DNA from: Oscillospiraceae bacterium
GTDB lineage: Bacteria; Bacillota; Clostridia; Oscillospirales; Acutalibacteraceae
Length of the DNA stretch: 38,684 nt
Direction of reading: 5' to 3'
Assembly: GCA_902796075.1 (NCBI GenBank)
Contig: CADBNN010000094.1
Coordinates: 1 to 38,684 of the forward strand
Positions 4,123 to 25,322 of this stretch are shown here, piece after piece (within the stretch, counting starts at the first letter, position 1; each line of letters begins with the position of its first letter). Below the pieces are notes generated by a model. It was not told where the DNA came from, ran no database searches, and saw only the letters and a program-made list of their open reading frames with translations. The translations under genes were made by a program, and so were the position numbers.

Positions 4123-5841
4123 ATGAAGCGCATAGTATCCGCAGGAATTGCTTGTTTGCTGGTGGTCTTGCTGTTCAACGCCACGCTGCCGGCGCAGGCC
4201 GCCACAGCAAAATTGCGCGAAATTTATTGGCCCGATACCGAATTGGTGCTGCCGCCCGTGGTGGTGCAAACCGTCACGCAAACAGCGCAGGTTGCGGCGC
4301 TGGCAGACGATGAAACCCCGCCGCAAGCCGTGTGGCTGCCGGTTGCGGGCGGCGAAACGCCGCAGGTGCAGTTGTCCCAAACCGCGCTGCCGCTCAGCCA
4401 GGCGTTCGGCGCCTGCGGCCAGCGGGTGATACCCGTGCTGGCCGTTGACGATGCAGCCACCGCAGAATCGGTGTTGGCGTATATTGCAAGCGCGGGCGAA
4501 AGCGATTTGTTTATTGCTTCCGCCAAAGAAGACGTGCTCCGGCAAGTTGCGGCAGCGGGGCAAGCGTATGTATACACGGTTTACCTGGCCGGAGAAAACG
4601 CCGACGTGGCCGCTGTGGCGCGGGCGGCCCATCGATGCGGAGCGATAGTGGCGGCGCTGCCGTCTGCCACGGCTGCGCAAACCGCCTACCTGCAGCGCCG
4701 TTTTTTAACAGTTTGGCTCAACGGCGAAGCGGAAGATGACGTAAAACAAGTATACGCGGCCGTAGACGCCGGCGCCGACGGCGTGGTGGTGAAAGACGCC
4801 CACACGGCCTATGAAAAGTATGCCGCCGTAACAAAGCCGGCCTATGTGCGCACGCCTGCGGTGGTGGGCCACCGCGGCTTTCCGCGCGTTGCGCCCGAAA
4901 ATTCGCTGGCAAGCATGCAAGAAGCCTTCGCCAACGGCGCCGACGCGGTGGAATGCGATATCTATATGACGACCGACGGCCATTTGGCCGTTTTGCATAA
5001 CAGTAATCTGGCAGGCTATGTGGAAGAAGAAGGACCTTATCCGTTTATTGAAAGCATGACCCGCCAACAGATCGAGGCTTACACGTTAAAAACGGTTGGC
5101 AAGCACAGCGGCTGCAAGGTGCCGTTTTTAGATGAACTGTTTGCAGAACTGCGGCAATGGCCCGATAAACTGCTGGTGGTAGAAATCAAAAGCAGTCAAG
5201 CGGCTATTGTGCAACGCCTGCGGGATCTTGCCGAACAATACGGTGTTATCGACCGGATCGTGGTTATTTCCTTTTTGCAGCAGCAAATCCAAACCTGCCG
5301 CGCCGTTATACCCGAAATCGGCGTTTCCTGGCTTTCACAAGACATATTCACCGATACCGCCGGCCTTTCCACCACCCGCACCAACGTGGCGATTCGCAAG
5401 TGCCTGCAAACGGTGGTGCCCCTGGCGGCGTCCATTAGCCCGTATTATGCTTATATGACCGCCGAAATGGAACAAAAGCTTCACGCGCGCGGCGTCGGCG
5501 TAAATGTGTGGACGGTAGACGCCGCCGCCGATATAAGCCAACAAATCGCCGTTGGCGCTCTGTTTATTACGACCAACCGCACCGACCGCGCCGTGCAGGC
5601 CGTGCAGGCGCTGCCGGGCCTTTCGGCCGATGCCGTGTGGGGTCCTCAGGTGGCCCGGGGCGATGTGAATGCCGACGGGCGGGTAGACGCCGTAGACGCC
5701 TTGCAGGTGTTAAAAATGGCGGTGGGCAAGCTCACGCCGGACGCTTTGACGGCGGCGCGGGCCGATTTGAACGCCGACGGCGACACCGATGCCCGGGACG
5801 CGTTGCTCGTGTTGAAAATTGCCGTTGGCAAAGCTGACTGA
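4123..5841 (+). CDS. Secreted glycerophosphodiester phosphodiesterase with C-terminal type I dockerin
   Basis: This is a 572-residue protein from ATG at 4123 (GGAGGG 6 nt upstream); the open frame runs further upstream, but no better start is seen. Residues 1-27 are a signal peptide ending AQAA. Residues about 245-490 form a GDPD TIM barrel with H250-R251-G, the PEN motif (259-261), E277 and D279 (ECDIY), H292 (LHN) and EIK near 354-356, all expected catalytic or metal positions. It should hydrolyse glycerophosphodiesters to glycerol-3-phosphate and an alcohol outside the cell. Residues 35-240 look like a degenerate second barrel without catalytic residues (LTVWLNGEAEDD to DGVVVKDAH resembles a GDPD C-terminal part). 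Residues 513-571 are two dockerin calcium loops (DVNADGRVDAVD and DLNADGDTDARD). A dockerin on a GDPD suggests attachment to a cohesin-bearing surface protein. Confidence 0.9.
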   Translation: MKRIVSAGIACLLVVLLFNATLPAQAATAKLREIYWPDTELVLPPVVVQTVTQTAQVAALADDETPPQAVWLPVAGGETPQVQLSQTALPLSQAFGACGQRVIPVLAVDDAATAESVLAYIASAGESDLFIASAKEDVLRQVAAAGQAYVYTVYLAGENADVAAVARAAHRCGAIVAALPSATAAQTAYLQRRFLTVWLNGEAEDDVKQVYAAVDAGADGVVVKDAHTAYEKYAAVTKPAYVRTPAVVGHRGFPRVAPENSLASMQEAFANGADAVECDIYMTTDGHLAVLHNSNLAGYVEEEGPYPFIESMTRQQIEAYTLKTVGKHSGCKVPFLDELFAELRQWPDKLLVVEIKSSQAAIVQRLRDLAEQYGVIDRIVVISFLQQQIQTCRAVIPEIGVSWLSQDIFTDTAGLSTTRTNVAIRKCLQTVVPLAASISPYYAYMTAEMEQKLHARGVGVNVWTVDAAADISQQIAVGALFITTNRTDRAVQAVQALPGLSADAVWGPQVARGDVNADGRVDAVDALQVLKMAVGKLTPDALTAARADLNADGDTDARDALLVLKIAVGKAD

Positions 5842-6044: not shown

Positions 6045-7352
6045 GTGGCCAGAGGATGGCGCGCCGTGTGTGCGGCGCTGGTATGCGTGTTGCTGTTGAC
6101 CGGGTGTGATACCGCCTTTTTAGATCCGGAAGCCGCCATTCGGGCGCCGGCGGCCACCGGGCTGTATGCCGGCGCGCAAGACGCGCTGGAAGCCGCCGTG
6201 GGCAGCAATATAGCGTTAAAATATCCGCCGGTGCGCGGCGCCCATTCCGCCTTTTTTGCCCGGGATCTGAACGGCGACGGCAGCCGGGAACTGCTGGCCT
6301 TTTACCAAAAACGTACCGAAGGCGCCGTTACACGGGTGCATTTGCTGCGCGCCACGGTGGAGGGCGGCTGGCAGTCGGTGCAGGATCTGGAGCCCCTGGG
6401 GGGCGACGTGGCCGACGTGGACGTGTGCGATCTGGACGGCGACGGTACCGAGGAAGTGTGCATCGGCTGGAGCGTTTACACTGCCCGCAACAAGCAAATG
6501 TGCGTCTATCAGCTGGTAGACGGCGTGCTGGTGCAGCGCGCGGCGGAAGCCTATACCCGCTATGTGATATGCGATATGGATAACGACGGGCAGAACGAAC
6601 TGGGCCTGGCTTTGCTGGATACCGAAAAACAAACCTCGTCCGTTTCCTTTTTCAAAATGCAGGACGGCGCCCTTTCGGGCATCGGCTCGCTTATGCTGGA
6701 CGGCACCGTAACGGCCTACGCCCGTATGACGGCCGCCAGCATCACCGCCCAAACGGCGGGGGTGTATTTAGACGCTTACAAAGGCAACGCCGTTACCATA
6801 ACCGAACTCATTTATTTTAAGGCCGGCAAGCTGTATAATCCTTTTGCCAGCAGCAAAACCGGCAGCAACATTGCCACCCTGCGCTATTGCGTGCTCACGG
6901 CGGGGGACGTAAACGCCGACGGCGTGATGGAGATCCCCTTTTCGCAGGTCATGCCCGGCTATGAAGAGGACGATACCGACCCGGCCCATCATATGATCTG
7001 CTGGCGGTATTTCAACGGCCGCATCAGCGATACGGTCAACGTGTGGTGGTATCACCCCGCCGGCGGTTGTTATCTGGAACTGGACAGCAACTGGGCCGAG
7101 CAGGTGACCGTCACCGGCAACGCCGATGAGGACGGATATACGTTTTATGCTTATGACGGTAAAACGGTGGGACAGCCGCTGTTCAGCCTGAAAACCGTTT
7201 CGGCTGCCCGGTGGGAGGCCGATCCCGACCCGGCGCTGTCGGTGCTGTATGAAAACGAAACCACCGTGTGGGTGGCCCGGGTGTGGCAGGATAACGCCTA
7301 TGGCATTACCGCCGCCCAGTTGGCCGACAAATTTCACTTGATCATAGAATAA
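6045..7352 (+). CDS. Lipoprotein with Asp-rich FG-GAP/VCBS-like calcium loops
   Basis: This is a 435-residue protein if started at GTG 6045, 11 nt after GGAGG. The GTG at 6036 is only 2 nt from it and less likely. The signal peptide ends in the lipobox LLLTGC, with C21 as the lipidated residue. The mature part has at least four loops of the form DLNGDGSRE, DLDGDGTEE, DMDNDGQNE and DVNADGVME. They are spaced like FG-GAP/VCBS beta-propeller blades that bind calcium. It is probably anchored to the outer face of the membrane. It lies 34 nt upstream of a response regulator and kinase, so it may be an accessory sensor or an output of that pair; this is inference from position. No catalytic motif is recognised. 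Confidence 0.8.
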   Translation: MARGWRAVCAALVCVLLLTGCDTAFLDPEAAIRAPAATGLYAGAQDALEAAVGSNIALKYPPVRGAHSAFFARDLNGDGSRELLAFYQKRTEGAVTRVHLLRATVEGGWQSVQDLEPLGGDVADVDVCDLDGDGTEEVCIGWSVYTARNKQMCVYQLVDGVLVQRAAEAYTRYVICDMDNDGQNELGLALLDTEKQTSSVSFFKMQDGALSGIGSLMLDGTVTAYARMTAASITAQTAGVYLDAYKGNAVTITELIYFKAGKLYNPFASSKTGSNIATLRYCVLTAGDVNADGVMEIPFSQVMPGYEEDDTDPAHHMICWRYFNGRISDTVNVWWYHPAGGCYLELDSNWAEQVTVTGNADEDGYTFYAYDGKTVGQPLFSLKTVSAARWEADPDPALSVLYENETTVWVARVWQDNAYGITAAQLADKFHLIIE

Positions 7353-7386
7353 CCGGGCGGCGGGGCCGCCGAAAAGGAGGATACTC

Positions 7387-8091
7387 ATGGCAAAACGAGT
7401 GTTGGTGTGCGAAGATGAAGCCGCGATCCGCGATTTTGTTGTGATCAACTTGCGCAAAAACGGATTTGACGTGCGGGAGGCCGAAACCGGCGAAGCCGCC
7501 CTGCGTATTTTTATGGAGGAAGAAGGCCGCTTTCACGTGGCGCTGCTGGACCTGATGCTGCCGGGGATTGACGGGCTGACCGTTTGCCGCGAACTGCGGC
7601 GGGCCAGCGATACCCTGGGCATTATTATGCTCACCGCCCGCTCGCAGGAGGCCGACAAGATCAAAGGCCTTTCCAGCGGGGCGGACGATTACGTGACCAA
7701 GCCCTTCAGCCCCAGCGAACTGGTGGCCCGGGTCACGTCGCTGTGCCGCCGGGTAGAGGTCAACGCCGACGCCCTGCACCAAAAGGCGGGGGACCGGTTA
7801 ACGGGCGGCGATTACGTGCTGGATCTGCGCCGCCATTGCATTGAAAAGAAAGGCGTGCCCATTGAACTGACCCAGGTGGAATTTGATATTTTGGAAATGC
7901 TGTTTTCCAACGCCGGCCGCCTGGTGGAACGAGCCGATATTTTGCAGCGGGTGTGGGGCGGCGGCTCCGCCCGGGATGAAAAAGTGGTAGACGTGAACAT
8001 TCGCCGCCTGCGCATGAAGATAGAAGACGATCCGGGCGAGCCCGAGCATATCATCACCGTGTGGGGCCGGGGCTATCGCTGGCAGAGTTAA
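7387..8091 (+). CDS. OmpR/PhoB-family response regulator
   Basis: This 234-residue DNA-binding regulator has an N-terminal receiver domain with acidic pocket E9-D10, phosphoacceptor D55 (LLDLMLPG), the conserved Thr in MLTAR and the Lys in VTKPF. A C-terminal winged-helix domain (about 135-234) ends VVDVNIRRLRMKIEDDPG and GRGYRW, as in the PhoB/PhoP subfamily. A perfect AGGAGG lies 8 nt upstream of the ATG. The partner kinase follows after 24 nt. The general organisation resembles PhoP-PhoR or WalR-WalK, but the signal cannot be named. Regulated genes may include the lipoprotein just upstream. Confidence 0.93.
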   Translation: MAKRVLVCEDEAAIRDFVVINLRKNGFDVREAETGEAALRIFMEEEGRFHVALLDLMLPGIDGLTVCRELRRASDTLGIIMLTARSQEADKIKGLSSGADDYVTKPFSPSELVARVTSLCRRVEVNADALHQKAGDRLTGGDYVLDLRRHCIEKKGVPIELTQVEFDILEMLFSNAGRLVERADILQRVWGGGSARDEKVVDVNIRRLRMKIEDDPGEPEHIITVWGRGYRWQS

Positions 8092-23732: not shown

Positions 23733-23825
23733 GCGCCCCAACACTCTTATTTTACTACAACGCCCGCCAAAATGCAAGTGGTATTTTGCACGAAAATTCA
23801 CATTCAACTTTGTGAATTTTGCGAA

Positions 23826-23854
23826 TTGCCAAACGCTCCCGTTTGGTGTATACT
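23826..23854 (+). promoter_or_regulatory. Promoter of the structured RNA
   Basis: TTGCCA (23826-23831), a 17-nt spacer and TATACT (23849-23854), predicting a start near 23861. The spacer contains an inverted CAAACG/CGTTTG pair. Confidence 0.75.
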
Positions 23855-23860
23855 GTAAGC

Positions 23861-24148
23861 GAACTAAGGAAAGAGCAATAAGTGAGAATCCACACAGAAA
23901 GGACTGAGTCCCATGATTGTTGAGCCAACGACCCACGCATATCAAACCAACAAGAAAGGGGTGAGTCCCAAATACAGTTCGTGCTGAGCCTGACTTAAAA
24001 CGTTCGTAAACAAACCCAATAACTAAAAGGTGAATTCCCATGTACAACTAAAGCCTTCGGGCATTCAAGATACGAACTTTTTCAGATCGGAAGGTAAAAA
24101 CCGATGTTCTAAGCAATTCGCGGGACGCTGCGGCGTCCCGCTTTTTTT
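23861..24148 (+). ncRNA. Candidate structured non-coding RNA (~288 nt), possibly raiA-like
   Basis: An intergenic transcript unit lies between a clear promoter (23826-23854) and a strong terminator (24120-24148). It has no convincing coding frame and is less GC-rich than its neighbours. Three copies of a TGAGTCCCA-like element occur at 23905-23913, 23962-23970 and 24031-24040 (the last as TGAATTCCCA). Each is preceded by AAAGG. Helices that can be drawn by eye are GTTCGTA (24002-24008) with TACGAAC (24071-24077), TGAAT (24031-24035) with ATTCA (24063-24067), a GCC-UUCG-GGC tetraloop hairpin (24053-24062), and ATCGG (24086-24090) with CCGAT (24101-24105). Size and gut-Clostridia context fit the raiA RNA class, but I cannot verify this. 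6S RNA, tmRNA, SRP RNA and RNase P RNA do not match what I see. Confidence 0.7.
24120..24148 (+). terminator. Strong terminator of the structured RNA
   Basis: A perfect 9-bp stem GCGGGACGC/GCGTCCCGC (24120-24128 with 24133-24141) is followed directly by seven T residues. It separates the RNA from the cohesin-dockerin gene promoter at 24160. Confidence 0.93.
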
Positions 24149-24248: not shown

Positions 24249-25322
24249 ATGAAACGCAACTGGTTAGCCGTTGTAAGCACCCTGCTGGCCGTGTGCCTGC
24301 TGGCGTGCCTGGGCGCGGTCGCCGCGGCAGACGAGGCGGTGCCCGTTACCTTTACCGTGTTGACCGAATCCAACATCCGGGCAGGCCAAACGGTCAAAGT
24401 GTCACTCAACGTTGCGCAGGAGCGCACCATGATCGGCGCTATCGGCTTCGCTTTTTCGTATGATGAAACTTATCTGGAACCGGTTATGGACCCCGAAACC
24501 GAACGGTATTTCGTCACCGGCCCGGCTTCCGGCGGCGCCACCGCCGTGGGGAACGAAAAAACCATGCAGGTGCAAATGGCGTCGGTGAACGGTTTTAAGG
24601 CGCCCGGCACGGTGGTTTCCGTCTTTTTCAAAGTAAAACAGGAGATCCCCATCGGCACCACCGCCCGCGTTTCGGCGGCCGTTACGGTGGAGCCCACCGA
24701 TAACGGCAACCGCACCACCGTGTATAACGTTACCATGGTGGCCGGCGGCGTGCGGGGTTTGGTGTATCCCGAAGAGTTGGAACAGTTCGTTGCGTCGCTG
24801 CCCGAAGTGGGGGACCTGACGGAAGAACACGAAGAGCAGGTGCTGCATGCGTATAACGAATATTGTGATTTATTGCCGGCGCAGCAGGAGATCCTGCGCA
24901 ACCGGGATAAACTGCTGGCCCTGGTGGAAGCGCTGAAAAACATCCCGCGCACGGCGGTGCTGCCGGTAACAGACGCCATTGCGGCGCTGCCCGCCCCCGC
25001 CGATATCACGCCGGAAAACGCGGCCGCCGTGCAAACGGCTCGTGTGCAATTCGCACAGCTCACCCTCCAACAGCAATCTCTGGTGCAAAACGCGGCCGCG
25101 CTCACCGAAGCGGTGGCAGCGGTGCGCAGCCAAACGGTACGGGGCGACGTGAACGGCGATAAACTGCCCGACGCCCGCGACGCGTTGCTGGTGCTGCAAG
25201 CGGCCGTGGGCAAGCGCACGCTCAGCGATATGGAAGCCATTTTGTCCGACTTGAACGACGACGTGGCAAACAACGCAAAAGACGCGCTCATCATTTTAAA
25301 AATCGCCGTCGGTAAAGCGTAA
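24249..25322 (+). CDS. Secreted cohesin-like domain protein with helical linker and C-terminal dockerin
   Basis: This is a 357-residue protein from ATG 24249 (AAGGGGGA 8 nt upstream). Residues 1-27 are a signal peptide. Residues about 32-167 look like a cohesin-type beta-sandwich. They have the pattern AGQTVKVSLNV, then GAIGFAFSYDETYLEPV and later VVSVFFKVKQEIPIGTTA, the strand order of cohesin domains. Residues about 174-293 contain two helical repeats with the pattern ASLP or AALP, then LTEEHEEQV, then LLPAQQEIL or LTLQQQSLV. Residues 298-356 are a dockerin with loops DVNGDKLPDARD and DLNDDVANNAKD. A protein with both binding halves could bridge a dockerin enzyme to another cohesin, like a small adaptor scaffoldin. 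The cohesin call is by eye and needs a profile search; a general carbohydrate-binding-like sandwich is the alternative. Confidence 0.8.
   Translation: MKRNWLAVVSTLLAVCLLACLGAVAAADEAVPVTFTVLTESNIRAGQTVKVSLNVAQERTMIGAIGFAFSYDETYLEPVMDPETERYFVTGPASGGATAVGNEKTMQVQMASVNGFKAPGTVVSVFFKVKQEIPIGTTARVSAAVTVEPTDNGNRTTVYNVTMVAGGVRGLVYPEELEQFVASLPEVGDLTEEHEEQVLHAYNEYCDLLPAQQEILRNRDKLLALVEALKNIPRTAVLPVTDAIAALPAPADITPENAAAVQTARVQFAQLTLQQQSLVQNAAALTEAVAAVRSQTVRGDVNGDKLPDARDALLVLQAAVGKRTLSDMEAILSDLNDDVANNAKDALIILKIAVGKA

Follow-up and report, generated by a model that had tools for sequence, protein, structure and literature searches.

The locus described here lies within a 38,684-nucleotide stretch of DNA from an Oscillospiraceae bacterium (contig CADBNN010000094.1; the window, by which we mean the whole stretch that was analyzed), between a gene of the NMN transporter family upstream and a cohesin-dockerin gene downstream. 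The product of the downstream gene (24249–25322) matches Cohesin at 32.8 bits and Dockerin_1 at 21.4 bits, the latter just under the Pfam cut-off of 22.9, placing both halves of a cellulosome-type pair in one protein. The intervening region contains the following features:

23793–23825, plus strand: inverted repeat AAAATTCACA/TGTGAATTTT, then TTTTGCGAAT, immediately 5' of the −35 box
23826–23854, plus strand: promoter TTGCCA-17-TATACT, read in the window sequence
23896–23915, plus strand: element 1, AGAAAGGACTGAGTCCC-ATG, an extended Shine-Dalgarno sequence and the start codon of ORF1; 16S-tail duplex −14.4 kcal/mol
23913–23987, plus strand: ORF1, 24 amino acids (MIVEPTTHAYQTNKKGVSPKYSSC, then stop), starting at element 1; most homologues have a counterpart, with weak conservation
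23953–23972, plus strand: element 2 (AAR class), AGAAAGGGGTGAGTCCC-AAA, without a start codon; 16S 3'-tail duplex −20.7 kcal/mol
24025–24051, plus strand: element 3, AAAAGGTGAATTCCC-ATG TAC AAC TAA, mini-ORF M-Y-N-stop, with the counterpart M-Y-I-stop in genome G014
24089–24112, plus strand: element 4, GGAAGGTAAAAACCG-ATG TTC TAA, mini-ORF M-F-stop
24120–24148, plus strand: intrinsic terminator GCGGGACGC-TGCG-GCGTCCCGC-T7, a 9-bp hairpin with 8 GC pairs plus T7

An earlier note on this DNA had described a stand-alone transcript unit, bracketed by a promoter and a strong terminator, that contains no convincing gene and does not serve as the leader of the cohesin-dockerin gene. Both signals are confirmed in the sequence (23826–23854 and 24120–24148), the terminator separates the RNA from the cohesin-dockerin gene, and the genes flanking the homologues vary. 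It also holds that no reading frame spans the RNA, but the short ORF1 (23913–23987) had been missed. Homologues carry TTGACA or TTTACA and TATAAT where the window has its −35 and −10 boxes, and these boxes rank with the best-conserved columns in an alignment of 32 sequences. The promoters of homologues are of the sigma-A type. A terminator was detected 3' of the elements in most homologues. The segment TTTTGCGAAT also stands 5' of the −35 box in G004, G014, G179, G410, and G530, which represent several genera; together with the inverted repeat, it is a possible UP element or common regulator site of the RNA gene. Because homologues with the same promoter-elements-terminator layout adjoin unrelated genes, which by eye from their translations include MraZ-, NAD-synthase-, DNA polymerase IV (DinB)-, and DUF1292-like genes, we assign region 23861–24148 as a predicted independent small-RNA gene of ~290 nt with its own promoter and terminator. 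The RNA probably acts in trans.

The blastn matches came from two genomes within the genus and from one genus outside it, and shared only a ~35-nt core. Scanning with element 2 as a pattern gave 102 stretches. Many were chance singletons, but Clostridia were strongly enriched, and tandem arrays appeared in Ruminococcus, the Caproiciproducens group, and Eubacterium. A sequence model built from six loci, covering the promoter to element 2, recovered many full-length homologues across genera of the family at E < 1e-7. Among sequences outside the model, the best E value in the family was 1.7e-17, and independent matches in other families of the order reached 2e-13 (G530), 3e-9 (G519), and 6e-9 (G562); the G058 match is the same locus as L053, a member of the model, and is not independent. 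With a 32-locus model, at least 35 of 300 family genomes match below 1e-10, weaker matches, often to promoter columns only, being left uncounted. Homologues with their own promoter and terminator thereby span dozens of related genera, many of them in the family and others in three further families of its order. A class-wide search with the pattern of the AUG-less element matched only the window's family and family f79, and a reversed control gave 0 matches. The f79 loci (L214, L216, and L217) are identical in sequence to Acetobacterium, Eubacterium, and Eubacteriaceae records, and Acetobacterium and Eubacterium carry the non-AUG element only. We conclude that these loci constitute a predicted small-RNA family of Clostridia that is undescribed and absent from Rfam 15.

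Most homologues share one layout: a promoter, element 1 with a short ORF, AUG-less and AUG elements ~50 to 65 nt apart, and a terminator. The cleanest cross-genus match is that of G014 (L023, 1270–1560), in which element 1 with the peptide MKDAPPKNYFK-stop is followed by an AUG-less element, ATG-TAC-ATC-TGA, ATG-TTC-TAG, and the terminator. The window presents the same order, with MIVEPTTHAYQTNKKGVSPKYSSC-stop, the AUG-less element, ATG-TAC-AAC-TAA, ATG-TTC-TAA, and the terminator.

Several variants of this layout were noted along the way. One of the two G004 copies (L006, 1476–1620) has three consecutive mini-ORF elements, GAGGTACAGACCAATG-TTC-TAA, GAGGTAAGGACCAATGGGCCGTTAA, and GAGGTACAGACCAATGGGCTGA. 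Eubacterium barkeri and E. aggregans (L059, ~6800–7700, and L064, ~4350–5230, in minus-strand coordinates) each have two tandem units of ~350 nt, every unit with an apparent promoter, the AAAGGGGTGAGTCCnAA element, and an apparent terminator. In Acetobacterium, it is common for a genome to have two or more loci in which the element lies near a terminator. The Ruminococcus versions are long arrays of repeat units (L071, 5350–5960; L094, 690–1410, minus strand; L043, 5080–5710, minus strand), each with an ORF of ~11 codons resembling MKVNTAMRRNI-stop, then AAAGGGGTGAGTCC. These longer versions may be structured, since inverted repeats (TGACATTA/TAATGTCA) separate the units. The RNA may be likened to 6S RNA (RF00013) as a housekeeping-type sRNA, but the window RNA has no match to the 6S model and the relation is one of neighborhood only: in L065, L071, L109, and L127, all Ruminococcaceae-type loci, a 6S RNA lies ~0.5 to 2 kb from the homologue, with a DUF1292-like gene in between at least in L065.

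The repeated elements form the core of the RNA. The earlier note had counted three copies of an AAAGG-preceded motif; these are indeed present at 23896, 23953, and 24025, with AAAGG followed by TGAGTCCCA at two of them and by TGAATTCCCA at one, but the count is four, since the element GGAAGGTAAAAACCGATGTTCTAA at 24089–24112, whose counterpart in another genus is AGGTGAACACCAATGTTCTAG, had been overlooked. Within the window, the string GGNNTGANTCC is confined to elements 1 and 2, against a chance expectation of 0.9. The longer AGGNNTGANTCCNATG has 1 occurrence in the window's own genome and six matches in eight related genomes. Because five of these six fall in homologous RNA loci, the sixth being at the start of a protein-coding gene, the element is not an ordinary gene start of the lineage.

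Elements 3 and 4 have the layout of two-codon minigenes, in which a Shine-Dalgarno sequence and AUG are followed by one or two sense codons and a stop, and the ATG-TTC-stop of element 4 recurs in G004b, G014, G032, and G101. An in-frame stop follows within three codons in 72 of 80 distinct AUG elements (ORF1 excluded); for the remaining ATGs of these loci, the figure is 45 of 291 (15%). When all three frames are considered, the first stop encountered is in frame for 72 of 79 AUG elements, at +6 or +9 with few exceptions. If the elements are thinned to <75% identity, this still holds for 44 of 51, with a nominal p = 2e-29, although binomial p values of this kind are too small in that the loci share descent. 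Because immediate in-frame stops are selected at these AUGs, ribosomes most probably meet them. The second codon is variable (TAC 29, CAC 9, AAA 7, AAC 6, TTC 5, and others), and it would therefore seem that ribosome occupancy, in the form of initiation and termination, is selected instead of a peptide.

The elements are also complementary to the 3' end of 16S rRNA. This end, GGCTGGATCACCTCCTTTCT, was confirmed in several genomes of the same family; no copy turned up in the assembly of the window itself. Pairing takes the form GAAAGG..(G)UGA(n)UCC against 3'-UCUUUCCUCCACUAGG-5', is longer than a normal Shine-Dalgarno duplex, and always contains a one-base bulge (UGA-n-UCC). Mean duplex energies with the 16S tail are −16.0 kcal/mol for ORF1 elements (shuffles, −6.0), −15.7 kcal/mol for AAR elements (shuffles, −6.7), and −12.0 kcal/mol for the AUG elements of mini-ORFs (shuffles, −5.1). 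When 38,660 sites were sampled across the two strands of the window, none paired more strongly than element 2 (−20.7); elements 3 and 4 pair moderately, at −10.9 and −9.5 kcal/mol. Judged by the Shine-Dalgarno distance, the AUG, or the AAG/AAA that replaces it, would sit in the P site. A folded RNA thus appears to account for the repeated elements less well than do ribosome-binding sites of mini-ORFs whose 16S complementarity is extended.

The AAR class, named here for the AAG or AAA that stands where an AUG is expected, has a TGAGTCC core in 79 of 80 elements, and the bases before UGAG are mostly GGGG, GAGG, or GUGG. This class retains the strongest match to the Shine-Dalgarno sequence. In-frame stops follow in 60 of 86 AAR elements, relative to a background of 23%. 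Positions −9 to −7 read GTG or ATG in 73 of 75, of which only the purine is informative, the TG belonging to TGAGTCC. This triplet was seen in frame with a downstream stop (M/V-S-P-K-x-x-stop), as at window positions 23961–23987. A GUG or AUG start at −9 is nonetheless unlikely, because the Shine-Dalgarno spacing would be ~1 nt, which is too short, and the Ser codon is always AGU. In Acetobacterium and Eubacterium, the AAR element is followed by an ORF of 7 to 8 codons (by eye M-x-x-E...) directly before the terminator.

Ribosome engagement of this RNA is strongly suggested by its sequence. In our best explanation, to which we give an even chance, the small RNA engages ribosomes through tandem mini-ORFs with extended Shine-Dalgarno sequences and probably holds or titrates initiating ribosomes. 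Several sites at once on the RNA would engage 30S or 70S ribosomes: element 1 would drive the short ORF, on the minimal ORFs, ribosomes would initiate, terminate, and initiate again without moving away, and at the AUG-less elements pairing alone would retain 30S subunits. The RNA might in this way park or titrate initiating ribosomes, or it might become ribosome-coated and be stabilized. It is the combination of tandem minimal units, strong Shine-Dalgarno sequences, and no downstream gene that suggests such a ribosome-holding job. A more specific form of the proposal, which we offer tentatively, is a dedicated ribosome-parking RNA whose conserved parts are docking sites only: AUG-codon-stop units would idle 70S ribosomes, AUG-less ones would hold 30S subunits, and an RNA, instead of a hibernation protein, would tune the pool of free ribosomes.

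Two-codon minigenes provide the closest parallel. Like elements 3 and 4, they consist of a strong Shine-Dalgarno sequence, an AUG, one sense codon, and a stop; a strong Shine-Dalgarno sequence leads to re-initiation without ribosome dissociation, and ribosome occupancy can shield RNA from nucleases (PMC8708949). The known cases, axe-txe mg2 and B. subtilis ycbK, are located in leaders, where they influence the downstream gene in cis (PMC8708949). The window RNA differs in that it has several such units in tandem, is terminated, lacks a downstream gene, and includes AUG-less elements as well; the terminator follows directly where a leader would continue into its gene, and the flanking genes are unconserved. 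This difference from the cis-acting minigenes counts against our explanation, as do four other observations. The one-base bulge is odd if pairing alone was selected, the in-frame stops of the start-less AAR class are unexplained by simple trapping, the invariance of the AAR UGAGUCC is what a motif that binds a protein or an RNA would show, and elements 3 and 4 of the window pair only moderately with the 16S tail.

The main rival takes up the third of these points. The small RNAs CsrB/RsmZ and CrcZ carry many copies of a motif resembling a ribosome-binding site that could titrate a translation factor. By analogy, GG-n-UGAGUCC-RAR could sequester an RNA-binding translational repressor whose mRNA targets bear the motif at their starts, a protein-sponge reading that we consider unlikely, although it is the strongest of the alternatives. 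The likeness to CsrB/RsmZ and CrcZ (PMC4063720) lies in multiple RBS-like motifs that could titrate a translation factor, and multiple copies of one motif, which a protein might bind, are seen here on a terminated sRNA. Such a sponge would be expected to act in trans and to carry a conserved motif in tandem within sequence that is otherwise neither conserved nor structured, as appears here; the near-invariance of UGAGUCC in AAR elements (79/80) is more than 16S pairing needs; the extra base also speaks for a sponge; and many AAR elements have no start codon. The motif, however, is neither the AnGGA of CsrA nor the CA motif bound by Hfq, and GG-n-UGAGUCC shows no consistent hairpin, unlike the GGA in a hairpin loop of CsrB-type RNAs. 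The elements differ further from CsrB and CrcZ in having in-frame start and stop codons and full complementarity to the 16S tail, and the in-frame stops selected at AUG elements would be needless for a sponge. The motif is also almost absent from ordinary gene starts of the same genomes in a pattern search, leaving few visible mRNA targets, and there is no candidate protein.

Less probable again is that the RNA is a peptide mRNA, in which ORF1 would encode a functional short peptide and the mini-ORFs would tune translation or mRNA stability. ORF1 is present in most homologues, has Glu at residue 4 in 27 of 49, encodes an early Pro with synonymous codons (CCA 16, CCG 14, CCT 6, CCC 1), and is most variable at third codon positions (53, versus 48 and 37), all of which would fit a translated peptide. 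Its length nevertheless varies widely in the homologues, from ~8 to 37 amino acids, with many copies ending just 5' of element 2, and little is conserved past the E/P residues. In G338, G266, and G562, a stop after two codons replaces ORF1, and the frame crosses element 2 in the window but ends before it in G001 and G014.

We regard as improbable a base-pairing regulatory sRNA, whose repeated UGAGUCCC segments would pair with target mRNAs. An unstructured, terminator-ended RNA with a repeated single-stranded motif is typical of seed regions, yet this motif complements the anti-Shine-Dalgarno region and not Shine-Dalgarno sequences, and the in-frame stops would be left unexplained.

That this is a structured noncoding RNA, either raiA/ModT-like or some other folded riboregulator, is very improbable. 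The raiA motif RNA/ModT is an abundant RNA of Clostridia whose mechanism is unknown (PMC11706538). It shares with the window RNA a stand-alone existence in Clostridia but has a conserved complex fold, whereas none is seen here and the raiA model is not matched. The earlier note had proposed a structured RNA with several helices, possibly of the raiA class or else something new. A cmscan of the window with Rfam 15 gave 0 matches at gathering score, a search of the region to E = 10 returned chance matches only, with raiA not among them, and 14 further related loci had no match over the RNA. raiA (RF03072; gathering score, 101.3 bits) is absent from the whole genome, and none was found above the cut-off in 40 relatives. 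The raiA assignment can thus be set aside in favor of a new family. The terminated transcript unit and the UUCG tetraloop hairpin of the window (GCC-UUCG-GGC at 24053–24062, as the note had reported) would suit a folded RNA, but the hairpin is not conserved in homologues. The full 288 nt, including the terminator, have an MFE fold z of −1.89; without the terminator, the value is +0.84 for the window, folding no better than shuffles, and the mean is −0.75 over 55 regions. RNAalifold on six homologues gave 4 consensus pairs and 0 compensatory changes, so the proposed helices lack covariation. Outside its terminator, the RNA is not structured. A pairing between elements 1 and 2 (GGACU/AGUCC) is possible in many homologues, not in all.

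Other resemblances were considered and rejected. A mini-hairpin within each element (GGn...nCC) looked promising at first, in a handful of sequences, but its closing bases pair inconsistently (GGUGAGUCC, GGACUGAUACC); likenesses to a T-box, through GGUGGUACC in a few elements, and to the T-arm of tRNA are partial only. A role as the leader of the cohesin-dockerin gene (24249), or an origin as its decayed upstream region, as the position on the same strand ~100 nt 5' of that gene might suggest, has a negligible likelihood given the strong terminator in between and the unrelated genes beside homologues.

We know of no described bacterial RNA family in which tandem units of a Shine-Dalgarno sequence and a minimal ORF lie on an independent, terminated transcript, and the open-access literature offered no precedent for RNAs with mini-ORFs in tandem or for decoy RNAs of the anti-16S kind. 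What ribosomes, or a protein that reads ribosome-binding sites, would do at the AUG-less elements is a pointed question, given the strict conservation of UGAGUCC and the in-frame stops there. As for the ribosome-holding explanation, its cellular role would lie in an effect on translation capacity. If ribosome binding is true, the RNA would be a simple device that controls translation capacity in very common gut bacteria.
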